A stretch of DNA of 64,000 nucleotides from Chaetoderma sp. LZ-2023a. Taxonomy: Eukaryota; Mollusca; Caudofoveata; Chaetodermatida; Chaetodermatidae. The number at the start of each line of letters is the position of its first letter. The stretch's first letter is position 1. Made by a program: the position numbers and the translations under genes. The notes beneath the pieces are model-generated. The model saw nothing but the letters and a program-made list of their open reading frames with translations, made no database searches and had not been told where the DNA came from. This document shows positions 31,831 to 60,520 of this stretch, piece after piece. The DNA is taken from assembly GCA_034401795.1 (NCBI GenBank), contig CM067363.1, positions 25,052,714-25,116,713 on the forward strand. The letters are read 5' to 3'.

Positions 31831-31932
31831 TTGAACATTTTGAAGTTAATTTAGACTGGAAGCCGTTGCTGCCTTAGGCAGCAACGCCAAGGCGGCAACG
31901 TCTTCCGGTCAAATTAATTTCAAAATATTTAA
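31831..31932. repeat. Foldback family 1 copy
   Basis: The left arm GAACATTTTGAAGTTAATTT and the right arm AAATTAATTTCAAAATATTT surround GGAAGCCGTTGCTGCC / GGCAGCAACG. Outer flanks CCTTTCACCCGACACC and TCGGTGAGAGGGTTAAC are also inverted, so the whole element spans about 31770-31995 and is bounded by TTAA-like sites. Confidence 0.8.
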
Positions 31933-32334
31933 CCTAAAGGTTTTATGTCGTAAAGAATTTCCTTTTTTCAGGGATTTGTCGGTGAGAGGGTTAACATTAT
32001 AGCTTATCAGCCAGAAATAATCATGCACCCTGTGCACCCAGTATTACAGATTTACCTGCACCAGACATTTTTACCTGCATTGTGCATGTAAAAGGGCCGT
32101 ATTTCGACGTCTGCCATGACAGAATATGTCCTTTGAGCATTTGCAGGTCAAAAGATAGTCCGAACACGGCATGAGAAGTTGCTACATGTATGCAGAAAGT
32201 CCCCACTTCTCAGGCCGTTTTTGGACTAGTCAGAACAATGCTATTCTTGAAAATGTAAAATTTAAAAAACTGGATTGACAGGTTTGGGTTATTCAATTAC
32301 CATAGTCATTTACCCTTTAACCCTCGAATTGTTC

Positions 32335-32500
32335 AAGAATATTTCAATTTTTACTTAGAAAATGCCCATTTGCAGACCAAAAGAAAACTTATTGACGGTT
32401 TACCACTGGAATGAATGGCTCGGTTATCGAGCCAGTCATTCCAGTGGTAAATTTTCAAAAATAGTCTTCTGTTGACCAGTCTGCAAATGGATATTCATCG
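32335..32500. repeat. Foldback family 2 copy
   Basis: The left arm GCCCATTTGCAGACCAAAAG and the right arm CTGTTGACCAGTCTGCAAATGG enclose TTTACCACTGGAATGA and TCATTCCAGTGGTAAA, with GGCTCGGTTATCGAGCC at the tip. It is preceded by TTTAACCCTCGAATTG. Confidence 0.85.
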
Positions 32501-32574
32501 AGACCAATTGCAGAGTTTGGTTTTGGTCGGCTTGACTATTAACCCTTTAGCCCTCAAATTTATTATTTTTAATT

Positions 32575-32725
32575 TCAGTCTTTTCATTGAAAATGTCCAT
32601 TTGCAGACCAACAGAAAACAATATTTCAAAATTTACCACTGGAATATACTGGCTTGGTTATCGAGCCAGTCATTCCTATGGTAAATTTTCAAAAATAGTC
32701 TTCTGTTGGTCTGCAAATGGACATT
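32575..32725. repeat. Foldback family 2 copy
   Basis: The same layout 240 bp further on: AATGTCCATTTGCAGACC and GGTCTGCAAATGGACATT are perfectly complementary, and the tip is GGCTTGGTTATCGAGCC. It is preceded by TTAACCCTTTAGCCCTC. Two adjacent copies suggest local duplication or nested insertion. Confidence 0.88.
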
Positions 32726-33021
32726 TCGCAAGATGACTGCAGAAGCTGTGTTTGGATAATATTAGTGTTAAATGGTCAATGTTTAACCACCTTGTTCCCA
32801 TAATAACCAAAGCTGGTCAGCCGACTAAACTCAGGGTATAATTTAGAATTTTACATTTTGCATAGCTGCAATTATTTCTATGCAAATTGTAAATTGTAGG
32901 GATGTAGTTGCCAGCAAAAATGTATAGGCCTACCAATTTACGCTAAAATAAAGAAAGTTAATGATTAAGCCTTTCACCGATCAATCGCTCATATCTAATT
33001 TTCAAGGAAACCATACAAGAA

Positions 33022-33123
33022 AGCTGTTGAATATTTTGAAATTAATTTACCTGGCAGCACTGGAAGCCGTTTCTGCCTAAGCAGCAACAGCTTCTAGTCA
33101 AATTAATTTTAAAATATTCAACA
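33022..33123. repeat. Foldback family 1 copy
   Basis: GAATATTTTGAAATTAATTT and AAATTAATTTTAAAATATTC arms, with GCAGCAACAGCTTC in the centre. The upstream flank TTAAGCCTTTCACCGATC and the downstream flank GATTTGTCAGTGTAAACG give the outer inverted repeat. Confidence 0.8.
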
Positions 33124-33554
33124 ATAATTTTTTAATTCTAAAGAATATACTTTTTCAGAGATTTGTCAGTGTAAACGATAATTGCAATCGCATAGAAATT
33201 CTGCATAGCAGATGCATGTTGATGATTGCCGGCTATAGCAACTGCCAACATGTGTAGCATATTGAAACGCGATACCAGTGACGCGATAAATGTTTTCCGT
33301 TACGTAACAGTGTTCAATAATGTGTTGTATACTCACTATATACTTCAGTTTAGTAATTTCAACGACATTTTACTGAACTCTGTCCCACGAAGAACGCGAA
33401 CATTCGCCAAACATTCATCTTCCTGAACTCACTCCAGATACATTATGCCATGAAACTATCCAGTTTTTAGTTCACCTGGCCAGAATGGCGAAGTGAGCTT
33501 ATGCCATTGTTATGGTGCTTATAGACCAGATATAGAAAATTATGTGGATTACAT

Positions 33555-34142: not shown

Positions 34143-34439
34143 TGTGGATTACATTATATCAGTGATTTTACATATAATGCTGTTAATTATGACCACCAGA
34201 ACCATGTGAAATCAAGCATGACGATTCCTGTAGACTATAGCCCAGAGAACAATAGCCCTATTAACAACACTTAAGCTGCCCACACTGGTCTTGAGGACAA
34301 CATATTTCAACCATGCTTATACCTGAACATTTATTTATAAAGCTTCCATTCTGTGTTTACAAAATTGTGTGTTTATAATCTGATAACCCCTTTCCCTCTG
34401 AATACCCATAAATATAGTTTCAACACATTTCTATAAGAA

Positions 34440-34530
34440 ACCTACTAAGTATTTTGGAAATAATTTGACTGAAAGTTGTTGCTGCCTATGGCAGAAACAA
34501 CTTTCGCTTTGATTGTTTTCAAAATAGTCA
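34440..34530. repeat. Foldback family 1 copy inside the 5' LTR
   Basis: TATTTTGGAAATAATTTGACTG and TTGATTGTTTTCAAAATAG arms, with GAAAGTTGTTGCTGCC / GGCAGAAACAACTTTC in the centre. Together with AT-rich flanking sequence it accounts for much of the extra length of the 5' LTR compared with the 3' LTR. Confidence 0.75.
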
Positions 34531-35110
34531 TCAGGAATTATTTAACTTAGTAGATCAACATACTCTTAACATGTATATGGAATGGAAGCGGTTAAATTGA
34601 TTTGTTTCATTGAATTGCATAATCCTGTGTTCATAAAAGTGTTATTATTAACAATTTGATATTTTCTGACAAATTAGAAATGTTTTTAGACATGTTCTGA
34701 ATTTATGTGTAACATGTTTCTTAACTACATATCTGTTTACTATAGATTCATCTAGGTATAAAATGTGAATGATTTTGTATATTAGAGATATAGAATTAGA
34801 GAGATATATGTGTAGTGACTAGAGTGACAGACACATAGATTTAGAGATACATATAAAGATTTAATGACAGATTGTTAGAGAAAATTAGAGATAAATAATT
34901 ATTGTTTGTAAAGTTTTATATCATCAGTATATCTTTTGAAGCAAAGTTTGGAATCATTAAAAGTTCAGTATCAGTAATATTTGAAGAAGCGCCTTGCTTA
35001 TTGTCTATTAGAGAGTCTTCACCTGTCGTCTCATCCTGAAGTGTAGCAGAGCTATTTACACCCAGCTAATCACCCGTATTCAGAAATATGTGGAAAATAG
35101 CCCGTAACAA

Positions 35111-36743: not shown

Positions 36744-36860
36744 CCCTGATGACTGTCCATCGGTTATCCATCTGTCCATCCGTCAACTTTTCTTTAAACA
36801 ACTCAGATTTGTTGACTGCTGAGTTTTTGCAGCCAACATTGCAAGGCTTATATCTCTGGA
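36744..36860. repeat. Right part of an interrupted interspersed repeat
   Basis: TGTCCATCGGTTATCCATCTG and TCCATCCGTCAACTTTTC resemble the CCATCCGTCGCCCCTCCGTC / CCATCCACTTTTCATTT block at 63564-63615. GTTCACCTGGCCAGAATGGC just before the LTR (33471) resembles the start of that block, so the LTR element probably inserted within one copy. Confidence 0.6.
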
Positions 36861-36952
36861 TCTGCTAAATATTTTGAAAACAATTTGACTGAAAGTTGTT
36901 GGTGGCTAAGCCACCAACAACTTTCAGTCAATTTTTCCCCAAAATATTCAGT
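36860..36952. repeat. Foldback family 1 (Gly-type centre) copy
   Basis: AATATTTTGAAAACAATTTG with ACTGAAAGTTGTTGGTGGCT, then AGCCACCAACAACTTTCAGT: the centre is perfectly complementary over 20 bases. This is the second sub-family (GTTGTTGGTGGCT centre), also at 52690 and 60073. Confidence 0.88.
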
Positions 36953-37330
36953 AAGTAAACCGTTTGAGCACAAACAATTATACATGATAAACAGACAGGT
37001 AACAGCAAGTCATTCCAGTGGTAAATTTTCAAAAATACTCTTCTTGGTCACAAATGGACATTTTCTATGAAAGAATTGAAATTTTCTTGAACAAAATTAA
37101 TTGTTAATGCGTTAAATGACTGACAGATGGTCCCCACATGTATATACATGTATATAGATACAACTTGCTACTGAATATGTGTGCTGGATACTAATGATGC
37201 TGGTTCTTTAAGATACATGTAGGTGGTCTTATAACCATCTTAAAGTATAATTGAAGATTCCAGCTTATCTATCAATCGTATGATGTCATAATCAACTACG
37301 TGACATGTAGGATGATATCATGATCAACTA

Positions 37331-37406
37331 CCCAGCAGGCACAGGACGTTGTTTCAACTTTGATACATTGAAATGACAATGAAACAACGTCATATATCCG
37401 CTGGGT
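37331..37406. mobile_element. CCCAGC-ended MITE, copy 2
   Basis: CCCAGCAGGCACAGGACGTTG to ATATCCGCTGGGT, with inverted GTTTCAAC(T)TTGA / GAAACAACGTC arms. It is shorter than copy 1 and again inserted in the TGATGTCATAATCAACTA region of a CTTTCCAG-type repeat. Confidence 0.8.
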
Positions 37407-37435
37407 AGTCTCAATTGTAAAACAATTTTACATGT

Positions 37436-37530
37436 AGACTAAGCTATTGAATATTTTCAAACTAATTTGACTGGCAGCTGTTGCTGCAGCAACTGCTCCT
37501 AGTCAAATTGCTTTCAAGATACTTTAGGGT
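37436..37530. repeat. Foldback family 1 copy
   Basis: GAATATTTTCAAACTAATTTG ... TCAAATTGCTTTCAAGATAC with GGCAGCTGTTGCTGCAGCAACTGC in the centre, which is a short perfect palindrome. Confidence 0.75.
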
Positions 37531-38120: not shown

Positions 38121-38519
38121 AAATTTGTCTTAAGCATTGTCAGGACACCTGCAGACGCCATCTTTGGATGACATGAGAGTTAAACGGCTAAGGACCTATC
38201 ATTCCGTGTTACTTGAGACAGAACCTTGGTCTCTCGAAGAGGCAGGGACCGACCTACACATTCGCCAATTAGCCAAATGCTAGTAGTAAAATTGAGATCT
38301 GGCTGATAGAAAGCAGGATTGGTTAAATATTTGGCTAATAATCATATTATTATGCATAATTTCTAAGTAGTGAAGCAGTGAAATTAATTTGAAGACCCAC
38401 TTTTATAAAGATATATTTAGGTACAGTAACTAGTAAATGTATTACTTATAGTATTCTTACTGTCGCGGAATAAACCCTGAAATCTTAATATCTCTGATCA
38501 CACACCAATATAGGCCAGC

Positions 38520-38617
38520 TGTTGACTATTCAATATTTTGAAACTGATTTGCCTGGAAGCTGTTGCTGCCTAGGGCAGCAACTGCTTCCAGGAAAATTAG
38601 TTTTAAAATATTCAACA
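38520..38617. repeat. Foldback family 1 copy
   Basis: CAATATTTTGAAACTGATTTG and AAAATTAGTTTTAAAATATTC arms; the inner arms are CCTGGAAGCTGTTGCTGCC and GGCAGCAACTGCTTCCAGG. The change GACTGG to GCCTGG is matched by CCAGGA on the other arm. Confidence 0.85.
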
Positions 38618-38787
38618 TAATCTTGTATCTGGTATTTAGCATTCAGTTGAAAAGGGTTACCTGGTGGTAATGGTTCATAGACATGGGAAATCATTGGCTA
38701 AAATACATGTAGTTCAGATTTGGCTAAGAAAAAGTAGTTGGCTAATCTATTGGCTAATAATTTGTGAAAGCCAGACCTGTCCCTCAG

Positions 38788-38953
38788 AGATCTTAACCCT
38801 TACCACACTGATGCCAAAATTTTAAATTTTCTAATTAAATTGAAAGACTAAAACTGGTGTTCATTTTTATAACAAATTGTCGAAAAATGTACACCAGTTT
38901 CTTTGCTATTGACAGAGTAAAAGATAAAATATTGACATCAGATTGTTAACAGT
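38788..38953. repeat. Foldback family 3 copy ending beside a FAS1 acceptor
   Basis: CTTAACCCTTACCACACTGATGCC and TTGACATCAGATTGTTAACAG are the inverted ends; ACTAAAACTGGTGTTCATTTTT and AAAAATGTACACCAGTTTC the inner arms. It ends 25-30 bases before the acceptor of FAS1 exon b. A related copy is in the hAT intron (26390-26590). Confidence 0.7.
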
Positions 38954-38979
38954 TAATGTGTATATTGTTTCTCTTACAG

Positions 38980-39132
38980 TATACAGCCTGGGTGAAGAGG
39001 GCGGGACTACAGAGTCAATTCAATGGACCTACTCACTTTACCGTGTTTGCGCCCAATGATACCGCGTTTGAAATGACGCCACGCGACCGACTCAACATTA
39101 TCGAGCGAACGCCGGAATCCATTCGCAGATGG
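38980..39132 (+). CDS. FAS1 (fasciclin) domain gene, exon b
   Basis: Acceptor GTTTCTCTTACAG, donor GTGAAC at 39133, 153 bases, phase 0 at both ends. It encodes YTAWVKRAGLQSQFNGPTHF and TVFAPNDTAFEMTPRDRLN to ESIRRW. HFTVFAPNDTAF is the conserved H1 box of FAS1 domains and identifies the family. Exon a supplies the preceding helix. The segment equivalent to the usual tyrosine-histidine turn (YHVV-like) should come next but no exon for it was found. Confidence 0.92.
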
Positions 39133-40042
39133 GTGAACACTTTTACATGTACGCTAACTTGGCTCAGTAAAAGTTATTGAAATCATGTATTTTTTTCATA
39201 TGCAAATTTCTTACAATTGTGAATTGTACAGATTTAAGTAGAATGAAGCGAGGGAGGTGAGTTAGCAAATATTTGGAAACGGGTTAACTAAATTTTTTGC
39301 TAATTTGGTACTAATATGGCAGAAATAACAATTTAGTTAAATTTATTTTAAGGGGTACTAACAATGTATTGACAGTGCGGCCTGTGGTTGGTCATGTGTT
39401 AGAGAAGTGGGGGGGGGGGGTGGCCCTTTCTAGGCGGACTGGTTACTGCCTATGTTCTTTTCTTGACCGCACATTTTAAATGGGTTATGTGTTCCTTCTA
39501 TGTACTGTCTGTGGCATTTGCTGCATGTGAGGAGATCGACAGGGTTTCTTGTTTGGTAGTTGCCGATGGTTTTGGCGGTGCAGGCTCTTGTGCACACGCC
39601 CGCACATCCACGCAAGATACACTAGGGTATGCTTATGGTTACTGCGTAGATGTGCGTGCATGTGCACGTCCACACATCCCTACACCATAATGGTGGGCAC
39701 TTTCAGAGCCTGCTTTGGTTTAGGCCGGTGCTATGGTTAGAGGTTGCCAGTGCTACTGGTTCGTCGGTGTGGCACCATCTAGTGGCCTGCTCTCCTCTGT
39801 GGTATAGGATCCACTGCTGATGAACTGGCAGTGTTATGAACATTTGCTTGGTTGCCCCCTTGTTGGGTAACCTTGGTGGTGCTAGTGTCCATGTTGGACG
39901 GTGCAAGGAGTAGCTCTGAACCTACAGAGTCACGGTTTAGTGCTGGTAATATCGTAGTCAGAACCGTGATGTCAGCGGATATTGACAACAAACCAACCAA
40001 TCAGCTTTCTGACATTGGTGTCCATAGATGAAGGTTTCATAC
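39133..40042. other. Intron DNA; weak ORF-like remnants
   Basis: A G run lies at about 39410-39420. Minus-strand frames at 39485-39673 and 39703-40000 contain Cys/His pairs and a TE-like look but no recognisable domain. I do not call a gene. Confidence 0.35.
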
Positions 40043-40117: not shown

Positions 40118-40395
40118 ATACATATAATCCAATAGAACAGTCATGAAGGTTTAGCCTTCTAATCAGGGCCCATAAAAGCAAACTTATGAGGCCAAGACAA
40201 TTTTTCAAACCTGTCAAGGGCCCTATTTTATCATTATGAGTCATCGGCGCACAATTGGGTCAACATGTGGAAATGCAGGATATAATAATTTAGGATAATT
40301 TAAAAAGTATTAAAAACATTGTTTTCAATCTTAACCATTTCAATAATATACATGTATCCCTAAAAAAGTAAATTAATTACTTTTTATAGGTTACT

Positions 40396-40497
40396 CTTTT
40401 GAATATTTTGAAATTAATATAACTGGAAGAGGAAACTATTTTTGGTTTTAGCAACAATGGCTTCGAGTCATACTAAATTCAAAATATTCAACAGCGT
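40396..40497. repeat. Foldback family 1 copy (diverged centre)
   Basis: GAATATTTTGAAATTAATATAACTGG and ACTAAATTCAAAATATTCAAC arms around a degenerated centre. The downstream flank TTCATCGGTTAAAGAG matches the outer arm. Confidence 0.7.
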
Positions 40498-40799
40498 TCG
40501 TGTTTATTTGCCATGTGATTGAAATACAGAGAGTTCATCGGTTAAAGAGCTAATAATATTAGCTCAACCTGCAATTTAGACTCGTCACCTACATGTAGAT
40601 ATAAAATGATTTTCCCTTCGCAATCTTAAAATATGGATCAAAAAATTTAGGCCGCCACCGGGGCTAGTGAGTTTGAAATTTTGGTAGCCCCACCTAAAAT
40701 CTAGGAGTCATGAGCTACCAGGCCCGGGCTAGAATCTTCAACACTCTTAGAAGGATCTAATTTGTCACTCAAGTACATATACATGTATGATGTCATAAT

Positions 40800-41205
40800 C
40801 AATTCACCTTTCCAGTCCATCCGTCTATCATATGATGTCATATGTCATCTTAATCAACTAAGTGACATGTCCGGGGGCGTCAAAATCTTGACATCATGAA
40901 TGATTCGATATAGCCCGTCTTAAATGCTTAATAGTCTGACACGTTGTACGAATTGGTATGTATTTGCTATTTAATAAACATGCTGTTGAATATTTTGAAA
41001 CTAATTTAACTGGATGCTGTTGCTACACCAGCTCACAGTCAAATTCGTTTCAAGATATTCATTAGCTTACCTGTATAGTTTTCTGGAAATTGAAAGTCGG
41101 GGAGTTTAGGGGTTGATCGATCCCAACACGAGTGAAGTGTGGGTGGGGCTTAGCTAGAGATGGGCGGAGCATAGTAGCTAAAACTGGAAAGGTCCATTAA
41201 CACCA
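40800..41205. repeat. CTTTCCAG-ended repeat, nearly complete copy
   Basis: From AATTCACCTTTCCAG to CTGGAAAGGTCC, about 400 bp, in the opposite orientation to copy 1-220. It contains TATGATGTCAT, ACACGTTGTACGAATTGG, a family 1 foldback (40983-41072), GATCGATCCCAACACG and GTGTGGGTGGGGCTTAGC. The same order is found at 51655-52025. Confidence 0.8.
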
Positions 41206-41404: not shown

Positions 41405-42480
41405 TTGAACTTTTGACACATCTTACAACCCACCCCGGGGTGGAGCCAAATGTAAACGTCCTTTTGCATTCGGCAATCATATGGGTAACTCATATACCAA
41501 ATTTGGTTGAATTTCGTGCAATAGTGTCAGAGGAGTTGCATTACAATCAATTTCATGACCTTTTGACAGCATCCCCCACCACTGGGTGTGGGGCCAAATG
41601 TAAATGTTCTCATCCACTCCACATTGATGTGGGTAATTCACATACCACATTTGGTTGAATTCCGTCCAATGGTTCCGGAGATGTGTTAAATCAATTTACG
41701 CAGGTTTAAATTTGACCTTCTAACCACTCTCCCGAGCCAAATCTAAATGGCCTCTTGCACTCCGCAATCCTATGGGTATTGAGTAACTTAGATATCAAAT
41801 TTGGTTGAGTTCTATCTAACAATTTCAGAGGAGTTACATTACAATCAATTTCATGACCATTTGACCTGATCCCCTGGGGGCAGGGCCAAATGTAAATGTG
41901 CTGATCCACTCCACATTGAGATGGGTAACTGACATACTAAATTTGGTTGAATTCCGTCGAACAGTGTCAGAGGAGTTGTATTGTAATCAATTTTTTTACC
42001 TTTTGACCCCCACCCCACCCATGCCTGGGAGCAGGGTCAAATTTAAATGTGCTCATGTACTCCACATTGATATGGGTAGCCCACAGAGCACATTTGGTTG
42101 AATTCTGTCTAACGGTTTCAGAGGAAATGCATTACAATCAATTTTTGCATGTAAAAAATTTGACCCTTTGACCACTCCCCCACCCCCTGGAGGCGGAGCC
42201 AAATCTAAATGGCCTTTTGCACTCCGCAATCATATGGGTAACTCAGATATCCAATTTGGTACAGTTCCATCTAGAACGATTTCAGAGGAGTTGCGTTACA
42301 ACTGTTTTGACCCCTGCCACGCCCCCTGTTGCGGAGCCAAATCTAAATATCGTCTTGCAAAGCGGAATCATATGAGTAACCCACATACCCAAATTGATTT
42401 AATTCCACCCAATGGTTTGGGAGGAGATAGTGTGACGGACGGATGGAGGCGATTACAATATCCCCGACGCTTTTTTAAAA
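41405..42480. repeat. Tandem repeat, about seven units of 140-160 bp
   Basis: GCCAAATGTAAA or GCCAAATCTAAATGG marks units near 41445, 41592, 41733, 41884, 42037, 42197 and 42336. Each continues with a CATATGGGTAACTCA-type block, CAAATTTGGTTGAATTC and TCAGAGGAGTTGCATTAC. It ends with GACGGACGGATGG and ATTACAATATCCCCGACGC. I associate this type with mollusc genomes (recollection, not searched). Confidence 0.9.
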
Positions 42481-43220: not shown

Positions 43221-43239
43221 TTCTCCTTCGATCAATACT

Positions 43240-43395
43240 CACCATTCTGTTACTTCTGATATACAGCTGGCCTTGACAGCGGCTCTAGGATTATAGACTT
43301 AGAAAGCTTTACCGACTCCTGGGAACCGGGTACTCGGCTCCCCACTGCCGAGTACCCGTTTACCATAGAGCTCATTCTTGTTTGCATAGCGACAA
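43240..43395. repeat. Left inverted terminal repeat of DIRS element 1
   Basis: CACCATTCTGTTACTTCTGAT ... GAGTACCCGTTTACCATAGAGCTC. It pairs with 50125-50285, where CCCGAGTACCC motifs form the same hairpin (GGGTACTCGGCTCC / GGAGCCGAGTACCC). Confidence 0.9.
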
Positions 43396-43497
43396 GAGCA
43401 ATACATGCTTTTTGCATTAAGGATTTTAGTGTTTTAAAATAATCTAAGTCTTTAATCAGTGATAGTTTGTGTGTTCTGAAAGGATTAACTAAGGACT

Positions 43498-43524
43498 ATG
43501 GAGAATACCGCCCAAGACAACCAG
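43498..43524 (+). CDS. DIRS 1 gag, first exon
   Basis: ATG GAG AAT ... CAG encodes MENTAQDNQ and is followed by GTTGTA. The matching acceptor is TTTTATAG at 44293, phase 0 on both sides. The second DIRS copy has the same design (MSDTAKSPEDAPGPSHQ followed by GTGTAC), which makes this short exon credible. The inferred intron is 43525-44293. Confidence 0.55.
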
Positions 43525-44611: not shown

Positions 44612-44649
44612 CGTTCTGACCACGCTGGTGTCGTCCCTACTACCAACGG

Positions 44650-48400: not shown

Positions 48401-49476
48401 ATCTCCCAGGCCAAGGGACGCTTCCTACACGAGCGTCCCGAAATGTTCAATGACTGCGTGGATGTTATCAAACAACGTTCCACGTCGGAAGGCTTTTCTC
48501 GACAGGCTGCTGATTTCATCGCGGCTGCGAGAAGGAGGTCAACCTTCAAGTCATATAACAACAAGGTTAACAGATTTGCAGATTGGTGTGAAGAAAAGGG
48601 TATTGATACCTTTCAATCCACTATCAGCAAATAGCAGACTTTCTCTGTGAGCTGTTCTTTTGAGGACTAGCTCCCGTCACAGTTGCTGGATACAAGTCAG
48701 CTTTGGCATCAGTTATCCCTTGTCTAGCCAACAGGGATAGTCCAGAGGTGGCCCAGTTAAATGTGATGTTGAAGGGAATGAGCAATCTCCGACCGAGACA
48801 ACCGGTAGTCATTCCAGCCTGGAGTCTATCTTTAGTGCTTAATGTACTGGCCAAGCACCCTTTCGAACCGTTGCGTTCGGCTAGTCTAAAGCATTTGACT
48901 CTAAAGGCGGTCTTTCTATTGGCAGCTTCCTCAGCTAGAAGGCGCAGTGAGATCCATGCGCTTTCGGCAGAGAGGAACCGATTTATTGTTTCTGGAGAAG
49001 GTCTGCGTCTTCTGCCAAGAGCAGAGGTTATGTCAAAGAACCAATCTTTGAGATATCCCGGCAAACCGATCATTATACCGAAGTTAACTAGGTTTGATCG
49101 TGATGCCAGTGTTTGGTGCCCAGTCCGTGCTTTGACTAAGTACAAGAAATGGACTGACTCGTTACGGTCGAACGATAGACATCTGTGGATCTGCCATAAT
49201 AAGTCTTATGGCGCCGCATCCATGGATACTATCTCTCGTTTGGTGGTCGAATGCATTCAGACTACTCACGAGATGGCGACTGGGCACCAGGTGCAAGGCG
49301 TAAGGGCAGACAATGTCAGAGGAATAGCCGCCTCGACCGCCCTTTACAATGGTGTTCCGTTATAGGACATCATGGCCGTTGCACAATGGCACTGTGAGTC
49401 CTCATTCACGGATTACTATATGAGGGATGTGTCAGACTCAGCCAATCCACTCGCTTTAGCTGTTTTGAAACGATAG
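48401..49476 (+). pseudogene. DIRS 1 tyrosine recombinase
   Basis: An N-terminal SAM-like part (FSRQAADFIAAARRRSTFKS) is followed by two stops (48632, 48662) and the frame from 48703: VIPAWSLSLVLNVLAKHPFE, SARRRSEIHAL (catalytic Arg), then RADNVRGIAAS where the family has His-X-X-Arg, and, after a TAG at 49363, AQWHCESSFTDYYMRD with the nucleophile Tyr. His of the H-X-X-R box is replaced by Asn. The enzyme would join the DNA circle to the target. Confidence 0.88.
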
Positions 49477-50085
49477 TTAGTGACCACACTGCTTTTCCCC
49501 TTTTCTCACTTCGGTAAGAAAAGAACCTAAAGCAGGCATGGTCAGGCGAGAGGATGTCAACCAGATTGTGTCACTGATGGCCGAACCGGTGATTGGTTGG
49601 AGGCGGTACATCTGAAGTCCTGTTATCATAAGGTAATTCAACAAGTGAGAGTTTTTTGTATTATGTATATGTATCATGTTCATTCATCTTATATATTCAT
49701 GCTCATTCCCAGGCTAATACAAGCGATATGCAGGGAGTAGTTAACCCTCTTGGCATATTGGTGTTTCAGGCGAGATACATGTTCGTTAGTTCTCTCCCTT
49801 TTCTTAGGAGGAAAAAGGGGAGGGGGCTGTGACGCGAATGTGATTCGGTTCCGTGAACTTGACGGTCCTTTTAGGTCTCCGTTAGTCAAGTTTGAAGTCT
49901 AAAATCTTTCTCCAAGGGGCAAAATTAGCATGTATGGCTTGCCCCTTCCCACCAGGTTACTGATCAAATCTGGTGTATATCAGAAGTAACAGAATGGTGA
50001 GTATTGATCGAAGGAGAATGCAGGAAATGTCAATTTCCCTTTCTCCGAGATCTAACAATACTCACCATTCTGTTACGGACCCAGC
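49477..50085. repeat. DIRS 1 3' untranslated region and internal complementary region
   Basis: AT-mixed sequence, then at 49990-50085 GGTGAGTATTGATCGAAGG next to GCAGGAAATGTCAATTTCC and ACAATACTCACCATTCTG. This contains complements of both element ends side by side. Confidence 0.88.
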
Positions 50086-50124
50086 CTCCCAGCCCCACGG
50101 AGGCAAGCCATAGTTTTCTCTTGT

Positions 50125-50324
50125 TTGGTGGCTATGCAAACAATATGAGCTCTATGGTAAACGGGTACTCGGCAGTGGGGAGCCGAGTACCCGGTTCCCA
50201 GGAGTCGGTAAAGCTTTCTAAGTCTATAATCCTAGAGCCGCTGTCAAGGCCAGCTGTATATCAGAAGTAACAGAATGGTGAGTATTGTTAGATCTCGGAG
50301 AAAGGGAAATTGACATTTCCTGCA
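50125..50324. repeat. Right inverted terminal repeat of DIRS element 1
   Basis: GAGCTCTATGGTAAACGGGT ... CAGAAGTAACAGAATGGTG then the right-only extension GTTAGATCTCGGAGAAAGG to TTTCCTGCA. Confidence 0.88.
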
Positions 50325-50870
50325 TTTTGTGCCTGATTTAAGATATTGCATCGGTAGCCACAGCTTGGATATATAGTGGTCTATTAGAGTATTGCCCAGA
50401 AGGAGGAAGTCTATTTTGGTGGAACATATTCTTCTAAACCTTAGCATTTGTCTCAGTGGGCTTGCTTTTTTGCAGGCCCTGGGGTGGGCTGTGTTGTACT
50501 ACAGGTAACCGTGGGTGTCGGTTGGCTTGGTGTATAGGCTGAACGAGATTGGTTCATTATCTGAATGTATCACTTTGGTGTCCGAGAAAGATAGGACTAT
50601 ATATGAGATGTCTGCTTTGAATTTAATGGAGTTGTTTTCTCCATTCATATATTCTAGGAAAATGTCACGTTTCTCTCTTGATCCCAGGTCATATGTCGTC
50701 TATCACAATATATCTGAGGTAGAGGCTTGGTTGGAAGGGAGCCTTCTTGAGTAAGGGGTCTTCTAGGTTGCCCGTGAAGATACAGGCATAGGTACACAGC
50801 GCTCGATTTTAACACAAACCAGTTAACCCAACCATAGTAGAATTTCATATGGGTTAGTAAAACTACACCT
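50325..50870. other. Older sequence split by DIRS element 1 (right flank)
   Basis: Continues the flank broken at 43220. It holds weak minus-strand frames (50654-50848) and a plus frame 50515-50754. A Y-V-V-Y-H-N reading near 50695-50712 was tested as the missing FAS1 exon and rejected on phase. Confidence 0.4.
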
Positions 50871-51005
50871 ACACTAACCCATCAGGGTTAGTAATGCTCT
50901 CAAAAGAGGAAATACGAAAAACACTTATAATGTCATTACATGTACATTGTATGTTCAGTACCCATGAAAAATTGACAAAAGAACAGATTTTTTGCTACCT
51001 TCAAT

Positions 51006-51104
51006 GCTTTGTTGAATATTTTGATATTAATTTGTCTGGAAAGCTGTTGCTAAGGCAGCAACAGCTTTCCAGACAAATTAATTTCAAAATATTCAACAGC
51101 TTCT
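51006..51104. repeat. Foldback family 1 copy, nearly perfect palindrome
   Basis: GTTGAATATTTTGATATTAATTTG with TCTGGAAAGCTGTTGCTAAG, then GGCAGCAACAGCTTTCCAGA and CAAATTAATTTCAAAATATTC. The GTCTGG / CCAGAC pair differs from the GACTGG / CCAGTC pair of other copies on both arms at once. Confidence 0.92.
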
Positions 51105-51491
51105 CCATATGGTTGCCTTGAAAATGGGTTTTATAGGGATCCATCTGTGAATGGATTAAAGAAGTGATCAGCTTTGAACTTACAAACATTGGGTTAGTGA
51201 AATTTGCTGCGGGATAGTAAAATCAACGATGCACTATCCTGCCTGGGTTAGTGGAAAAAATCCTTAAAATCTGCCCCTGGGTACATGCAGATTTACTGTC
51301 CAGTGCCTGTACATGTACATTGTATCTTCACAGCCAACCTAGAAGAAAATCTACTCAAGAAGGCTGAGGGTCTGCAATCACTGATTGTTCTTCTTTTAAT
51401 ATGGAAGGAAACATGTTTTCAGTCTGAGCGGTGTTATCCTGTCATGCATGTGCACTGATTTCTCATTATTTTCAGTGCTCTCTTCCTACAG

Positions 51492-51654: not shown

Positions 51655-52025
51655 ATTCACCTTTCCAGAGGACCCACCCATCATATGACGTCATAATGAA
51701 CTGCATGATATGTACAATGACATCATAATGAATGACGTCGATAAGTATGTCACGAACGCATATTTGAAGACGGTCTATACGTTGTTGTACAAATTGTTTG
51801 CTTTTACTATTTAATAAATATTCTGTTGAATATTTCGAAACTAATTTGACTGGGCACCCAGTCAAATTAGTTACAAAATATCCATAAGCTTCCCTGTATA
51901 ATTTTCAGGAAATTGACAGTTAGGTCATTTGGGAATCAATCAATCCCAACACGGTGAGGTGTGGGTGGAGCTTAGCTAGTGATGGGCGGGGCATAGCAAA
52001 AAATGGAAAGGTCCGTTATTCAACT
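51655..52025. repeat. CTTTCCAG-ended repeat, nearly complete copy
   Basis: AATTCACCTTTCCAGAGGA to AAATGGAAAGGTCCG, containing ATATGACGTCATAATG, TGACGTCGATAAG, a short foldback (51825-51890: CTAATTTGACTGGG / CCCAGTCAAATTAG) and GGGTGGAGCTTAGC. It parallels 40800-41205 throughout. Confidence 0.8.
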
Positions 52026-52499: not shown

Positions 52500-52689
52500 T
52501 GTACATGTAAGTTGGTTAATTTGAGCGTTTAAAAAAATATAAATTTAACTCTTTAACGGCCAACCGAAGAAAAATTTGATGCTGCAGTTTCTGGTCCGCT
52601 TGATTACTCAGCGGTTATTATACTTGACTTAACTCATTATCTGACTACTACAAGCCACCAGAGAATAATTTCAATGGGATATAACTCTG

Positions 52690-52800
52690 AACCAGCTGAA
52701 GGTTTTGAAAACAATTTGACTGATAGTTGTTGGTGGCTTAGCACCAATAAGCCACTTACAACTTTCAGTCAAATTGTTTTCAAACTATTCAGCAATTCCA
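52690..52800. repeat. Foldback family 1 copy (GTTGTTGGTGGCT centre)
   Basis: TTTTGAAAACAATTTGACTG and CAGTCAAATTGTTTTCAAAC arms; centre ATAGTTGTTGGTGGCTTAG / CACTTACAACTTTC partly rearranged. Confidence 0.78.
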
Positions 52801-53268
52801 GCGGTAAACCCCATGATGTAGTCTGGCGAAATTCAGCAGACCGGCAGTTAAACCTAGAGATCAGACATGCATTTGAATTAGTGCAAACATTTTCTATTTC
52901 ATTTTAAATATTTTGATTAAGTTATTGAACCAAAATTGGTCATGTGACAGAATTAACCTTTTCGACAGATAGAAAAGGATTATTTCACATCAAGAGTATA
53001 CTTACCACCCTGATACTTCATGATATTTCCTAAATATCGACCTAGCTTCAATAATACTCAGAATTAAAAAGAAACCGCACCCAGTGGGCAGGTTACACAA
53101 CTGACAGTCCAGCGGATGTGCAGCCCAAACTCGCACATGCGCGGGGCTGACTCATTTTCTTCTTAATATATTGACCTGCCATTGCAACACGCTTTCTAGC
53201 CTTGCTTTTGCTTTGTATCTTTTTGAAGCTTTGAGTTGTTTTGCAACTTGTTTTGACTGAATATTAGT

Positions 53269-53319
53269 ATGTCTGACACTGCCAAGTCGCCGGAGGATGC
53301 TCCAGGTCCAAGCCATCAG
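53269..53319 (+). CDS. DIRS 2 gag, first exon
   Basis: Encodes MSDTAKSPEDAPGPSHQ and is followed by GTGTAC at 53320. The acceptor TGTGTCTTTTCAG lies at 54103, and both sides are at phase 0 (SHQ then RVIENKCPSC). The intron is about 784 bp. It is the counterpart of the short exon in element 1. Confidence 0.65.
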
Positions 53320-54103
53320 GTGTACTTTAGTATATTTATGGATACAAAATTTGCGTGTTGACTCGGATGGTATTTCCGGGATTCGCACTATCTCGTGGAT
53401 ACGTCTTTATTAGGCTAGCTCTTCAATGGGGGAGGCCTATATATTAGCTAATGCATGTTGTGCTTTATTTTTCAGACACGAGCTGATATTTGAAGGGTAT
53501 GCTTTTATTTTAAACAATATTTATACTTGGTTTCTGGATCCTTCTAATTTATTATGAGTTTGCTGAGGTAAATATTACCATAAGAAGTAATTTTTCCGCA
53601 TTCTCCCCCCACCACAGGGGTTTGGACTCAGGATCAGGTATTCCTGTGTTGTTATCAGACTTCACTCGTCCTCAGAAGTCATCTTATGAGGATATTTAGG
53701 AGAGAGAAAAAATTTCAATCATTCTATTTCTAAATATTTTTAGAAGTTTTTTGACTGAGTGTTGAGTTATTTATCTCTCTTGATGGTTTGCATAGGTTCA
53801 TTGTGTTTATAAAGTTAAATTACTTATGAATCTTTGTTTTGAGCTGTGAAGTTCAAAGAAGTTCGCCTCTCAAGTATTCAAGTTCAATTCTTATGTGAAA
53901 AAATCCCTTGTCTTCTTAAAGAAGTATAACATGGTTTTAGGATTTGTTTACTTTTTGTCAGGCCTATATCTTTTTCTATGGGCCTGGCTTATCTGTCATT
54001 TGATGGTCAAAAGATTTTCCTTATGGATCTTATTAGCCTTCTGCAATTGGTTTTTTGGTTCGTCATAACTAAAAACTAATTGTTTCCGTTTGTGTCTTTT
54101 CAG

Positions 54104-55070
54104 AGGGTTATTGAGAACAAATGCCCTTCCTGCCACCGTTTTGTGAAGGCCCTCTTTTTCCCTCATGACTGCACTAGGTGCAGTATGTGCGCGCCTCTTC
54201 TAAATTGCCATGTGTGAGTTGTGGCCGGTGGAGGTGTTGACTGGTTTCTTAAATCAGCAGGTAAAAGACTGGGCGGCAGACAAGAAGAGGCGTCTGGAAA
54301 AGGAATGTGGTAAGAAGAGCAAGGCATCCATGCCAGACATGGAGGCCTTCCGTCTTGAAATGATGGGAGAAATGAAGAGGACGATCACGGATCTTGTCCC
54401 GGAGTTGCTTCGCAGCTTGCTTCCCGGGTCAGGTTCGTCATCATCTTCTTCATTTTCTCCGGGACAGAGTGTTCCCGTCTCTGGGTCTGGTTCTCTTAGC
54501 AAACCAGTTTTCGTTATAGACCCAGAGATGGCTTCCGTTGGTCCGGCGCTGAGGCTTGCCTCGCCCGTGGACCCGGGAGCGAAAGCCATGGCCTCGGGCG
54601 CTCGCTTTTCAAGTGCTCTAGAGCAGCCTAAGGCTAAGGGTATCAGCACCTCACGCGAGGCCCCTCCTGCCCAGGCCGAGCTTGATCCCTTTTCAAGCTT
54701 GGTGTCTAATCTTTCTGGGCAGGAAGAAGAGGACACTCTGTTATGGCCTACCGATGAGTCGATGGCCATGGAAATGGATTCCCAGTGGGGGCCCATGGGT
54801 GACCTTTTCCATGGAACCACTTCTTCGAGAGTGGGTTTCACGGCTCAACGGCTAGGAGCCTATGGCCGTCCATACCGTATCCCTCGGCTTGCCGAGAGTT
54901 ACCGTGAGGAAGGCCCGGACTGTGACGTCATGTTTTTAGACCCCCATGACACTGTAGATCCGGCTCCTGGAATAGCCACGGCGCAAGCCATGCCGGCCCT
55001 TGCAGGTCTGTATGGCTTCCCTGGCTATCCAGGAGTATCTTCAGCTCCGGCCATACCCCACCAGTGAATG
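54104..55070 (+). pseudogene. DIRS 2 gag, Cys-rich part and following region
   Basis: RVIENKCPSCHRFVKALF, then CTRCSMC and NCH in the first frame, then one missing base near 54213 and CELWPVEVLTGFLNQQVKDW in the next. The Cys-X2-Cys-His-X-Phe-Val ... Cys-X2-Cys ... Cys-X2-Cys-X2-Trp order equals element 1. The 54210-55067 frame goes on with an LEXXXX coiled region, a Ser-rich linker and a Pro/Ala-rich tail. Confidence 0.7.
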
Positions 55071-55964
55071 TGGTTGAGGACGACGAAGGCCCTAGGCTCG
55101 TCGAACATTCACAGGTGGCCACCGAGGAAGACTGGTTAGATGCTTGCCAATGGCTGGTGAACATCAAGCCGGAACTCCAGGTGGATCCACCGGCTTCCCA
55201 GCGACCAGCACCCGTGGTTGGGAGGGAAACCAGTGATGAGCACCATGCCATCTCTGCCGTATGCAGAGCATATCGTTGATATGTTCGCTGCGGCAGAGAC
55301 GGCCATTATGCCGAAAGGACGCCTTGCGAAGGCCCCTCGTTGGGTGGCACGGCGCTGCCGTATAAGTTCTGATCTATATCAGAAGTATGGCGTCGTTCCA
55401 AAGCCTTGCACGGATGACCGTGCAGCTTTGGGCGAAGACACACGGCCTGGGTCCCAGTCTGACATGGGACCCTTGTGCTCTAGCACCCTGCACAACGCTA
55501 ATTCCGCGCTGCGGGACATGGAGGAAAGTACGAAACGAGCCATCTCGGCTCTCTCGCACATTTCCCAGCTGCTACAGGGGGTAGTAGCAGCATCCGTGGC
55601 CCGCCAAACTTCTCCTCTTGCAGTCCAGAGAGCCATCCAGGATGGCATTAACCTGGCTCTGGACTGCATGATGAGATCCGTAACAAGGAGTTTACGGGCG
55701 AGGTACACTTTTTCCCGTGACAATTTGTGCCCCTCGCAGGACCTGTACAATCAGCTTCTTTGGACGCCGATGGCAGGTCCAGGGTTGTTTGGAGGTGAAG
55801 GATACCTGCACCTCCAACAAACCGTAAACCTGGTGAACAACCAGAGGGCGCTGCGAGAGCCGTTTGAAGTGCTCTGCAGGGAGCGTGTTCGAGCAGCGCC
55901 CCCTGCCTTCCATCCTCAGCAGGCTAGAGGTGGTGGTGGCCTTGTCAGAGGCCAACCACCTTAG
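55064..55964 (+). pseudogene. DIRS 2 gag, C-terminal body
   Basis: Two overlapping frames (55064-55279 and 55218-55964) hold EDWLDACQWLVNIKPEL, RCRISSDLYQKYGVVPK and a helical region (ALSHISQLLQGVVAASVARQ ... YLHLQQTVNLVNNQ). It ends in a Gly/Arg-rich tail. Matches the 45.6-46.4 kb part of element 1. Confidence 0.65.
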
Positions 55965-56109
55965 CAGCATTGGCCATGGCAACGATAGCCTAAGCCAGCT
56001 AGGGGGGAGCGCAGGCTCCTCCAGCGCAACCTGCCAGACAGCCTGTGTACCGAGGTGCGCGTGGCGCTGGTAGAGGAGCACAGGGTTCTGGTCGTGGGAG
56101 CCGAACCTG

Positions 56110-57950
56110 ATGGGTCGCCTCTCAGAAAGACCACACCAGCTGCTAGGACAGCCACCAGAGACTGGGCTTCTCTTGCACTTCTCGGGTCCACCTCAATCCT
56201 TAGGTGTGCCCGTGGGAGGCCGTCTGGCCTTCCAGATGCAAGAGTGGGAGCGGGTTACTCAGGACCGCTCAGTCTTGCAATGGCTTTCAGTCGGTTACCA
56301 TCCCGACTGGATTTCAAATCAGCCATCACGCCTGTCTCTGGTTACGATCTTGACTGAAAATCCAAGCGATCCAGATCAACGGTTGTGTATAGAGGAAGAA
56401 ATTCAATCCCTCATACTAAAACACACTATTCAACCGGCACAAAAATGTCCGGGTTATTATTCGACCGTGTTCCTAGTGACAAAATGCACTGGAGGGTGGA
56501 GACCAATTCTCAACCTTAAACCTCTCAACAGGTTTATCCTCACACCAAGTTTCAAAATGGAAACTGAGAACGGTGTTAGCAGGATTGAGGAAGGGAATGT
56601 GGACAGAATCAATAGATCTAAAAGATGCCTATTTTCACATTCCCATTGCGAAGCGCTTTCGTCGGTTCCTGAGATTTGCATTTCAGGGCCGCCAATGGGA
56701 ATTCAGGGTTCTCCCATTTGGTATATCGACGGCTCCTCGGGTCTTCACTTGAGTGGTCCAAGCTATGACGTTATACCTCTGCAGGAGACACATAGCAATC
56801 CATACGTACATAGACGGCTGGCTGTTAAAAGCACACACTCAAAAAAGTCTATCAGCAAATCTGGAGATAGTTTTGAAAACTCTTACAGATCTAGGCTGGA
56901 TAATCAACTTTCAAAAGTCAGAGCTGACTCCATCCCAGAAGTTTGTTTACCTGGGCATGTTCTTCGATCTAGAGATAGGATATGTTTATCCATCTCAAGA
57001 GAGAGTAGAAATACTCATCTCAGTCATACAGTCAGTGTGGTCATGTCCTGGCACGGGTCTATGCGGCCGATCCAGTTATTTCTCATGACACAGTGGACCA
57101 AGAGTACGGGTTTCCTGGACTCAAATGTGTCAGTGTTGGAACCTCTTATTCACCACCTTCAATGATGGATGAAGAGAGACTATCTCCTGGCGGGGGTGAC
57201 GTTGTCACCTCCCCACCCTCAGTTAACGATGTACACAGATGCATCAATAGAGGGATGGGGAGCTTGCCTGGAAGAAAACAAAGTATCAGGGCTTTGGACT
57301 CTGGATCAGTCAAGAGAACATATCAATCTGCTGGAAATGTGAGCAGTAGTCTTAGCCATGGAACACTTCCTAGAGAAGGTCAAGGGCAAGAGTGTACTGG
57401 TTCGATCAGACAATACAACAGTAGTGACTTACATAAAGCGCCATGGCGGAACGAAGTCACCAAGTCTCTGTATGATAACATGGAAACTGCTTTGCTGGTG
57501 CCTAGATCATGGGATTTCCCTGAAAGCAGTTCATAATCCGGGAAGGTAAATCTATTAGCAGACTCATTGAGCCGAAGAATGAGCATTCTTCCCACGGAAT
57601 GGCAACTAAATCAATGTGTGGCGGATCGCCTGTTCAACCACTGGGGCAAGCCCAACATAGATTTATTTGCAACGAACAGGAATGCGAAGATGACGACGTA
57701 CATCTCTCCGATTCCAGATCCAAGCGCTATCGCAATAGATGCGTTAGCTATCAGCTGGGAGGGAATGTATGCATACGTATTCCCGCCAGCAATATTGATT
57801 CCAAAGGTTCTTCAGAAAATCAGGCAGCAGGAATGCCAAGTGCTTCTGATCGCCCCAAATTGGCCAAGCCGATCATGGTATACGGATCTGCTGGACCTTC
57901 TAGTCTGCAATCCTGTTCCTCTGCCTCTGATGGACGACATAATCTTCCAG
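56110..57950 (+). pseudogene. DIRS 2 reverse transcriptase and RNase H, frameshifted
   Basis: Motifs in order: FLVTKCTGGWRPILNLKPLN, a shifted RT core at 56.6-56.75 kb, YIDGWLLKAH at 56.81 kb (the YIDD box has lost its second Asp), FVYLGMFFDLEIGYVYPSQ, then RNase H (MYTDASIEGWGACLEE at 57.24 kb, LVRSDNTTVVTYIKRHGG) and DLFATNRNAKMTTYISP near 57.7 kb. Frame changes occur at about 56.57, 57.09, 57.34 and 57.55 kb. Confidence 0.88.
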
Positions 57951-59000
57951 GGCAAGGCCTTGCACAACAACCCGTCAATGTTCCAATTGACTGCGTGGAT
58001 GTTGTCAAGGAATCAGCAGTTAAGGAGGATTTTTCTGAGCAAACAGCCATGTTTATGGCAAAAGCCAGAAGGGGGTCAACCTCCAGAGCATATAATTTTA
58101 AAATCAACAGATTTGCTGAATGGTACTCAAAAAGATGTATTAATCCAATGGAAGCATCTATTCAGGTAGTAGCCGATTTCCTCTGTCACCTTTTTGATGC
58201 CTATAGCCTCAAGCCTAACTCTATTGCTGGCTACAAGTCAGCTTTAATGTCAGTTATCCCTTGCTTGGCTAATAGGGGAAGTGATGAAGTATGTAATCTA
58301 AATACTTTAATCAAAGGCATGGGTAATCTAAGACCAAGGAATCCTCCAGTGATTCCGTCTTGGAGTTTATCGTTAGTACTTCAAGTATTAGTAGATAAAC
58401 CCTTTGAACCACTAAGCTCCATTTCCATGGAAATGTTGACGCTTAAAACAGTTTTTCTGATTGCTGCAGCTTCAGCCAGACGAAGAAGTGAAATACATGC
58501 TTTGTCAGCAGAGCCAGACCATTTTGTGGTGACAGGGGAAGGCCTTAGGCTTCTACCTAGAGTTAACTTTATGGCGAAGAACCAGTCTTTAAAATATCCT
58601 GGTCAGCCTATAGTTTTACCCGCTTTGTCTAGGTTTGATCCTAATTCAAAGGTTTGGTGTCCAGTCCGTGCATTAACATGTTATAAACAACGTACACAGG
58701 AATGGCAGACAGACCCTAGTGCTTTATGGCTATCTTACATTGAACCCCATGGGAGAGCTTCTAAAGATACCATTTCTAGGTGGATTGTGGAATGCATCCA
58801 GCATTGCCACAAAGGCGCCACGGGTAAACAAGTTGACATGGCCAATGCTCACGGTGTCCATGGCGTAGTGACATCCACGGCTCTGTTTAACGAAGTGCCG
58901 GTTGATGACATTATGCACAATGGCACTGTGAGTCTAGTTTTACAGATCATTACCTATGTGACACGTCAAATCCACTTGCCTTTTCGATTTTATATAAACG
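57950..59000 (+). pseudogene. DIRS 2 tyrosine recombinase
   Basis: One long frame (57599-59194) contains the recombinase: FSEQTAMFMAKARRGSTSRA, VIPSWSLSLVLQVLVDKPFE, SARRRSEIHALSAE (catalytic Arg), then NAHGVHGVVTSTALF, where His is kept but the second Arg of H-X-X-R is His. A 7-base deletion near 58916 relative to element 1 moves the nucleophile block (AQWHCESSFTDHYLCD) out of frame. Complementary defects to element 1. Confidence 0.9.
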
Positions 59001-59534
59001 TTAAATCTTTATATAAATTTGTAAATGTTGTACATACGGCCGTTGAGTCACACACAGTGCAGGAATCCCCGCTTTTCCGTACTGTACCTATCATCGCCAG
59101 CGGTGATCAAAGGGAATCTCGTCAAAATAGGTTAGTCCTATATTTGGTGATGGTTATTTTTTGTCACGTTTTATATTACTTACTAAAATGGTGATGGTTT
59201 TCTGTTCTTTGTGGTTCCATCTGAGGGTATACGAAATGAAGCTTTCGTCCGATGTCTTATAGTACTTTAGCACGAGTACATAGAGAGCGTATAGGACATT
59301 GACGTCATCGCTCCCTCTTTAAAAGATGGGGGGGGGGGGGGTGGGGGAGCGGATGTGAAACGGTCATTACTCTCAACATCGGTCGTGTTATCCGATGTCC
59401 AAATCATTTCCTGATTGTGTTTTCAGATGTTTGTTGTGCTCCAAAAGCAAAAGCTTGCTATTCCAGGGTTGAGCTGGTCTTCTGACCTTCGCCTCCCTCG
59501 CGCCGAATTCTCTTACGAATTCTGGCTATATCAT

Positions 59535-59849
59535 GAAGTATCAGGGTGGTACATGTAAGTATACGCTTGATGTGAGAGTTGATACTTACCACCCTGATAC
59601 GATCCCGGCCTCTCCGCCCCACAGAGGCTCAGTCTATCGGCGTTTTATGTTGCAATTAGGTCAGCCAATATTTTGGAATAGAATGAGTCAGCCCCGCGCA
59701 TGTGCGAGTTTGGGCTGCACATCCGCTGGACTGTCAGTTGTGTAACCTGCCCAGTGGGGGCGGTTTCTTTTTAATTCTAAGTATTATTGGAGCTAGGTCG
59801 ATATTTAGGAAATATCATGAAGTATCAGGGTGGTAAGTATCAACTCTCT
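59535..59849. repeat. DIRS 2 internal complementary region and right inverted repeat
   Basis: 59535-59605 holds GTATCAGGGTGGTACATG and GTTGATACTTACCACCCTG around the end-to-end junction. 59685-59835 is the right inverted terminal repeat. Confidence 0.88.
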
Positions 59850-60072
59850 CGTGAAAAAAGAAATCCATGATTTCGTTTACGCTACTTCAGGAAAGTAAGA
59901 CTAGACTATACAAGAAGCATCTAGAAATCTAATAATATTACAGTACGTCTAAGGTCGTATTTACATTAACGAGTTACTCTGGTCTCAGTCATAACACGGG
60001 TACATCTAGACTACATTAATTACATCTGCCTGCTGAATTTCTGTAGACTATAGTTTCCAAGTCATTTAACTC

Positions 60073-60167
60073 TGAATATGCTGAATATTTTTAAAAACCA
60101 TTGACTGAAAGTTGTTGGTGGATAAGCCACCAACTACTTTCAGTCAAATTGTTTTCAAAATATTCAG
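60073..60167. repeat. Foldback family 1 copy (GTTGTTGGTGG centre)
   Basis: GCTGAATATTTTTAAAAACC ... ACTGAAAGTTGTTGGTGGAT / AAGCCACCAACTACTTTCAGT ... CAAATTGTTTTCAAAATATTC. Confidence 0.88.
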
Positions 60168-60359
60168 CTGGTCCACATTTATTGGCCATTGAAATTATTG
60201 TCTGCTGGCTTGCAGCAGTCAGACAGATAATTAATAGTAAGTCTGAAGACACGATTTCGATTAGTTGGATTAACTGATTTGACATGTTCGAAATGGATGT
60301 ACATGTTCCGACATAAATCAGTGAATGGAATGCATTGCGTATTACACCACACTTAGTCG

Positions 60360-60520
60360 CGTTCTTTAACCCTTTCACCGATAAATCCCTTAAAAAAATT
60401 AATTCTTTACATTATTTAACTTCTGTTGAGTATTTTTAAATTAATTCTTATTCAGATTAATTTCAAAATATTCAAAAGATTATGGTTGAGGGAATTATCA
60501 TTTAAAGGGCTAACACGATC
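60360..60520. repeat. Foldback family 1 short copy
   Basis: AACCCTTTCACCGATAAATC at 60369 and GGGAATTATCATTTAAAGGG at 60490 are the outer arms; GTTGAGTATTTTTAAATTAATTC and AGATTAATTTCAAAATATTC the inner arms, with almost no centre. A C run follows at 60531-60543. Confidence 0.8.

Follow-up and report, generated by a model that had tools for sequence, protein, structure and literature searches.

Foldback (FB-type) transposons have long terminal inverted repeats that form most of the element. The Angel elements of fish, attributed to Izsvak and others (1999), are reportedly short inverted-repeat elements that form hairpins, and fold-back amplification is said to have been proposed for them. The foldbacks considered here come from the mollusc Chaetoderma sp. 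LZ-2023a, whose assembly comprises 2.44 Gb in 2,753 contigs. They were described from a 64-kb stretch at positions 25052714-25116713 of contig C5, called the window below. These foldbacks are the internal hairpin core common to several non-coding, non-autonomous families of miniature inverted-repeat transposable elements (MITEs), a new and very abundant member among the known hairpin MITEs.

MITEs of the piggyBac/TTAA type have terminal inverted repeats of 12-19 bp ending in CC[C/T]T (PMC2872659). To this type belong the CMITEs of Acropora corals, about 100 bp long, and a role in transposition has been suggested by their authors for the conserved CMITE core (PMC2872659). One of the Chaetoderma families, F1, is likewise small, lies at TTAA and has CCCTTT-type ends, as in CMITE family VI (CCCTTTCACTGCCA). 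In both animals an internal region is common to several families and better conserved than their ends. Unlike F1, the CMITEs are only about 100 bp long, and neither a hairpin nor a palindrome is mentioned in the available part of the source (PMC2872659); the copy number is far larger in Chaetoderma. Another relative is the human element Made1 (hsa-mir-548), which the available text describes as a short, near-perfectly palindromic MITE that would form a stable hairpin as RNA. Made1 is of the mariner type and palindromic from end to end, with 37-bp terminal inverted repeats, whereas in F1 and in a second family, F2, the palindrome is internal, and F1 lies at TTAA (PMC1784062). The Chaetoderma family was not recognised in literature listings on palindromic or hairpin MITEs, mollusc and bivalve MITEs, or arm homogenisation, which is no proof of its being unpublished.

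The model that is quite probably correct for these elements is inheritance from symmetric founders. Each family of hairpin MITEs would have begun with a founder element that had two nearly identical arms. Later copies inherit whatever asymmetry their parent had, their arms mutate almost independently, and the symmetry itself would go back to rare events in the source lineages.

The hairpin core has arms of about 44 nt (TGTTGAATATTTTGAA...TTGCTGCC) around a 4-nt loop and lies at the centre of longer elements. The families, F1-F5, are the present authors' own groups and are defined by flanks. F1 is 211 bp long and consists of TTAA, CCCTTTCACCGA, an A flank of about 44 nt, the hairpin, a B flank of about 44 nt, TCGGTGAAAGGG and TTAA. 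Such outer inverted ends beside TTAA had been pointed out in a preliminary description of the window, as had the presence of more than one kind of hairpin centre, and both are seen. The terminal inverted repeat of the F1 consensus, CCCTTTCACCGA, measures 12 bp, within the piggyBac/TTAA range and with an end of the CC[C/T]T form; judged by its ends, F1 is of the piggyBac/TTAA type. Exact 13-nt ends on both sides (TTAA plus 9 nt) are carried by 230 copies genome-wide, with none for the reversed control. TTAA belonged to that search pattern, and it is also seen at F1 ends without this condition, at 31764, at 31991 and in sampled copies. F1 is short, even-sized and high-copy: 18 of 40 elements, fetched by a search that admitted lengths of 211-241, are exactly 211 bp long (range 211-232), and the sequence neighbouring them varies from copy to copy. 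An F1 subgroup on contigs C1-C17 carries GACTAG in the arm, and its A flank, CCCATATCTAATTTTAGGAAAACC, is shorter than usual.

F2, with a length of about 400 bp, has ends AATGGACCTTTCCAG, and no target duplications were seen by eye in 13 full-length copies. F2 copies (L010, L022 and L023) are repeatedly preceded by TTTTGAACAT/C, the F5 arm sequence, a sign that F2 may favour another hairpin family as its insertion site. In F4 the palindrome reaches almost to the element ends. The build of an FB-type foldback is not found in F1 and F2, where the palindrome is internal between non-palindromic flanks; the one exception is F4, with its palindrome running through nearly the whole element. When F1 and F2 are compared, the core is better kept than the outer parts, as in the CMITEs, with 41/45 and 41/45 positions agreeing in the arms and 30/45 and 28/49 in the flanks. 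This conservation fits either repeated copying or some function of the core during transposition.

The core is abundant throughout the genome. A 25-nt arm word with at most 3 mismatches has 543,157 matches (271,686 + 271,471), against 0 + 1 for its reversed control, and genome counts for large families are lower bounds. For closer study a sample of 264 kb was formed from the window and 20 ten-kb stretches of contig C1. It holds 148 matches to an arm profile, which give 51 hairpins and 46 unpaired matches; the window's share is 13 paired hairpins and 7 unpaired matches. By family, the 51 hairpins divide into F2 (25), F1 (9), F4 (7), F3 (3) and F5 (2), and five were given no family. F1- and F2-like sequence makes up 6.9% of the sample, its share being 7.4% in the C1 stretches and 5.3% in the window.

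Across the 51 hairpins the arms clearly vary together. Arm-arm identity is 82.0%, compared with 76.0% when right arms are permuted, a value that none of 3000 permutations brought up to the native one. Derived states are mirrored 28 times where 9.3 are expected (0/5000), and native hairpins fold at -37.7 kcal/mol, compared with -30.3 for re-paired ones. It is mostly families, not copies, that these symmetric differences set apart, the pattern expected from founder palindromes. If the founder arms were nearly identical, the families would differ from one another symmetrically, and the family consensus sequences are indeed symmetric: left and right arm agree at 45/45 positions in F1, 44/45 in F2, 41/45 in F3 and 43/43 in F4. 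The striking covariation of the arms is mostly family ancestry.

Inside a family the picture is different. In 40 full-length F1 copies the arms agree with each other at 84.6%, and arms re-paired between copies at 83.9% (sd 0.4; 239/5000 reach the native value). Mirrored positions number 5, with 3.7 expected, among 124 left and 105 right changes (1547/5000), a count of 229 changes that leaves out three polymorphic columns. Folding energies, proposed in the preliminary description as a check, are alike for native F1 hairpins (-45.5 kcal/mol) and for chimeric hairpins with arms from different copies (-44.8 +/- 0.5 kcal/mol). Arm mismatches at the between-copy rate, named there beforehand as the result that would speak against its reading, are what the 40 copies of F1 display. 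In F2 there are 5 mirrored positions and 3.0 expected (962/5000), and in the seven copies of F4 identity is 81.1% against 79.6% (638/3000). It is shown, then, that F1 arms decay almost independently after insertion; for F2 this is weaker. One lopsided hairpin recurs at 9 places, always 98 nt long, and in 5 of 25 F2 hairpins GTAACT on one arm faces GAAACT on the opposite arm. Such lopsided hairpins are inherited from a parent copy.

The window contains the following copies, together with two that lie outside the range 31831-60520 covered by the preliminary description.

31764..31994, plus strand: F1 MITE copy from TTAA to TTAA, hairpin 31829-31933 (sequence, F1 profile match 31778-31990, arm pair).
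32965..33173, plus strand: F1 MITE copy, hairpin 33025-33123, right end decayed (F1 match 32970-33173, arm pair).
34388..34537, plus strand: F1-like copy, weakly assigned, hairpin 34448-34532 (arm pair, flank grouping, profile).
36842..36976, no strand: F4-type hairpin 36863-36951 with flanks (inverted repeat, arm pair).
37256..37524, minus strand: partial F2 copy, hairpin 37447-37521, family not assigned by the flank test (F2 match, arm pair).
38461..38640, no strand: hairpin 38532-38617 with no family assigned, the GCCTGG example of the preliminary description (arm pair).
40356..40547, minus strand: F1 copy, hairpin 40399-40493 (arm pair, profile).
40804..41197, minus strand: near-complete F2 MITE copy, hairpin 40984-41061 (F2 match, model 2-400 of 403).
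51003..51159, minus strand: F1 half-copy with the A side, TTAA 51156-51159, hairpin 51010-51098, the GTCTGG/CCAGAC example (sequence, arm pair); its second outer half is not recognisable as F1.
51657..52016, minus strand: near-complete F2 MITE copy, shortened hairpin 51824-51883 (F2 match).
52674..52814, no strand: F4-type hairpin, core 52695-52794 (inverted repeat I13, arm pair).
60025..60223, no strand: F4-type palindrome of nearly the whole element, core 60079-60168 (inverted repeat I7, 97-nt arms, 72%).
60366..60513, plus strand: short F1-type element lacking most of the hairpin centre, arm remnants 60422-60479 (TTAA, CCCTTTCACCGA end); its right end is decayed and the right arm alone is matched by the arm profile.
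30908..31249, plus strand, outside that range: F2 copy with an unpaired arm match 31030-31070 and a nested palindrome 31216-31323 (profile, palindrome scan).
10583..10692, no strand, outside that range: F4-type hairpin 10593-10676 (arm pair, flank grouping).

At a score of at least 14 the palindrome scan finds 29 palindromes in the window, a number that takes in AT runs, C/G runs and repeats of other kinds; two first-order Markov shuffles yield none. Palindromes are present at all seven places named in the preliminary description, as the scan and the arm pairs agree, and they are imperfect. Its statement that each change has its complement in the other arm does not hold: 93 of 523 comparable arm columns in the 13 window hairpins are mismatched, with 1 to 13 mismatches per hairpin. 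Mismatches occur in two examples that it gave: at 38532 GCCTGG stands opposite TCCTGG, and at 31829 GACTGG stands opposite GACCGG. The GTCTGG copy at 51010 is symmetric and the best of the 13: one of its 41 columns is mismatched, and it departs symmetrically at two positions.

A direct view of how arms change is given by the genome-wide pattern AATTTGxCTGG...CCAGyCAAATT, with all other letters exact and a gap of 15-45, which tests one arm column, number 26. The common state A/A is found 33,870 times (reversed control 1 + 1). The reversed control gave no match for any other combination. A and T stand opposite each other in 1,117 copies (560 + 557), and A and C in 1,142 (588 + 554). Thus the variants GTCTGG and GCCTGG are single-armed in 2,259 of their 2,351 carriers (96%). 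Under independence 10.1 copies with T/T and 10.5 with C/C would be expected; 36 of each are seen (Poisson P 2e-10 and 6e-10), the half-copy at 51003..51159 being one of the T/T copies. Unmirrored doubles, with T on one arm and C on the other, number 20 (10 + 10), and 20.6 are expected.

Mirrored doubles are therefore 72 instead of 20.6, an excess of 51 among 2,351 carriers, or 2.2%. Differences in age or mutability between copies would raise the unmirrored doubles too; since these are at expectation, neither explains the mirrored excess. Simulated differences in copy age gave a 1.1-1.5 fold increase and were rejected as the source. A single mirrored subfamily was also rejected, as the mirrored copies have 15 distinct lengths for T/T and 13 for C/C, which speaks against one subfamily, not against several. 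The excess, with unmirrored doubles at expectation, may mean that about 2% of carriers underwent arm-to-arm copying by template switching, or that small mirrored subfamilies exist. Perhaps, then, arm-to-arm copying affects about 2% of changes and not every one.

Two known processes resemble such copying. Template-switch homogenisation of short inverted repeats, according to the available part of its source, predicts arm copying in a minority of events and a repeat that changes more slowly than its surroundings, and repeated copying has been suggested for bacterial inverted repeats; it differs in being a mutation process, not a mobile element, and the evidence here comes from one arm column (PMC8604942). 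In nematomorph mitochondrial palindromes, too, the arms of inverted repeats evolve in concert. There, as far as the available text goes, nearly all long repeats are perfect, whereas 18% of arm columns mismatch in the present hairpins (PMC6649704).

In the founder model, F1 would probably be moved in trans by a piggyBac-type transposase, and the genome has 119 matches to the piggyBac transposase family PF13843. The arms of each founder would have been nearly identical, as suggested by the symmetric consensus sequences. New copies would carry the asymmetry of their parent, after which the arms would mutate almost separately. The symmetry of a founder would probably be set in its source lineage by rare events, either template switching between arms or inverted duplication of a half-element. 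The F4 elements, and one fetched F1 element (L034) whose two halves are both B and deviate from the usual B flank in the same way, resemble products of such a duplication; the 2% mirrored excess would fit template switching.

Several results weigh against this model. Mirrored doubles of the same base occur at 3.5 times the expected frequency. Arm-arm identity exceeds the permuted value within F2 (81.3% vs 80.1%; 92/3000), in the 46 family-assigned hairpins permuted within family (81.9% vs 79.7%; 0/3000), in the nine sampled F1 hairpins (85.5% vs 79.8%; 0/3000) and in the five unassigned hairpins (83.2% vs 78.0%; 68/3000). Forty plus nine F1 copies share a change 33 times and 17.5 times when re-paired (9/3000), the largest contributors being two weakly assigned copies. 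Finer subfamilies, age differences or some arm-to-arm copying could underlie this excess within families. The F3 consensus comes from 3 copies and that of F4 from 7, and separate insertion sites were not established for the 9 lopsided copies. In the 12 of the 119 PF13843 loci that were examined, with 1.5 kb covered on each side, no pair of F1 ends surrounds the transposase. Single near-matches to F1 ends (2-3 mismatches) occur at L072, L079 and L080, and L077 has a pair of TTAACCCTTA.

The founder model has to be weighed against other explanations. In a model of continuing correction, hairpin extrusion with repair, or gene conversion, keeps the arms identical in most copies, as the preliminary description had proposed. 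The symmetry between families, the surplus of mirrored doubles at column 26 and the nearly perfect copy at 51010 all agree with it. However, arm-arm identity in F1 equals copy-copy identity, carriers of variants are overwhelmingly single-armed, and lopsided hairpins are inherited, so that correction on this scale is very improbable. The proposal thus survives in the symmetry between families and the 3.5-fold excess, and does not apply inside F1. The same description offered synthesis of every copy from a single arm by fold-back replication, in which the arms match by construction. Two B halves with shared departures in L034, and palindromes reaching almost to the ends in F4, are what it would produce. 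Against it, F1 keeps two different outer halves: 39 of 40 fetched elements have A/B halves (L053, with a weak B half, among them), and exact 15-nt anchors find 82 A/B-ended copies and no B/B-ended ones. Together with the asymmetry inherited at 9 places, this makes such a universal route hardly credible. Fold-back synthesis as the usual route, the one reportedly proposed for Angel elements, lacks support in the present families and is largely refuted by the A/B counts; rare events are possible.

Alternatively, selection in source elements may act on the stem as a hairpin, of RNA or of DNA, that serves transposition, replication or a small RNA, with compensatory changes fixed pair by pair. The better conservation of arms than flanks between F1 and F2 favours this, as does the single asymmetry of the F2 consensus, a G-T wobble. 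An Rfam scan of the window gave no match at gathering score, however, and repeated template switching also slows change in the arms, as the available text on that process indicates (PMC8604942); selection of this kind appears unlikely. For the excess at column 26 in particular, several small subfamilies, each with a founder mirrored from the start, could be responsible instead of arm copying in single copies. Letters have been read for 2 of 36 T/T copies and 0 of 36 C/C copies, and two C/C copies of equal length lie 22 kb apart, which leaves room for such subfamilies. The variety of lengths tells against them, as do the same excess for both derived bases and the different centres of the two readable T/T copies (F1-like in the window's own, F2-like in the other). 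Mirrored subfamilies are a serious candidate, if on balance a somewhat doubtful one.

Other repeats and genes share the window. A second palindromic group, CATTTGCAGACC...ACTGGAATGACTGGCTCGGTTA beside TTAACCCTTT-type ends, lies at 32308-32738, 36990-37115 and 60552-60740. The element C2:25401650 has F1-type CCCTTTCAC ends around an interior of this kind, which means that two hairpin families share these ends. A palindromic repeat CCCAGC...GACGT.GTTTCAAC...GCTGGG occurs at 31216-31323 and 37327-37409, one copy being nested in an F2 MITE. At 41430-42400 some seven units (GAGCCAAATGTAAA...), each 140-160 bp long and 61-83% like the reference, follow one another head to tail. An element of about 7 kb at 43221-50326 has inverted ends of 148 nt at 99%, more inverted pieces near its right end and an RVT_1 match, presumably a DIRS-like layout. 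Another, of about 6.8 kb at 52998-59840, has 165-nt inverted ends (96%) and a 531-aa open reading frame whose weak phage-integrase N-terminal match stands alone (E 0.007, below cut-off). Pfam found reverse transcriptase in 2 of 10 long open reading frames; of 10 further frames, scanned with E values to 1, one had RVT_1 above cut-off and others had weak matches. A fasciclin-domain gene (PF02469) is represented on the plus strand by two exon-like pieces, at 38950-39180 (E 4.9e-9) and 61506-61760 (E 7.4e-5); with pieces at both positions, the stretch 31831-60520 is probably partly intronic.

This genome may be a natural experiment on hairpin correction, a tentative view given just short of an even chance. 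Its roughly 34,000 near-identical stems would record arm copying as mirrored doubles (an excess of about 2%), and through the same rare process, acting in source lineages, the core would stay palindromic and change slowly from family to family. More generally, what looks like compensatory change between the arms of a hairpin repeat can be chiefly a founder effect, not repair, and comparing mirrored with unmirrored doubles at one site gives an inner control to tell the two apart. Should the 2% residue be true arm copying, such a family could yield an animal germline rate for correcting short inverted repeats.

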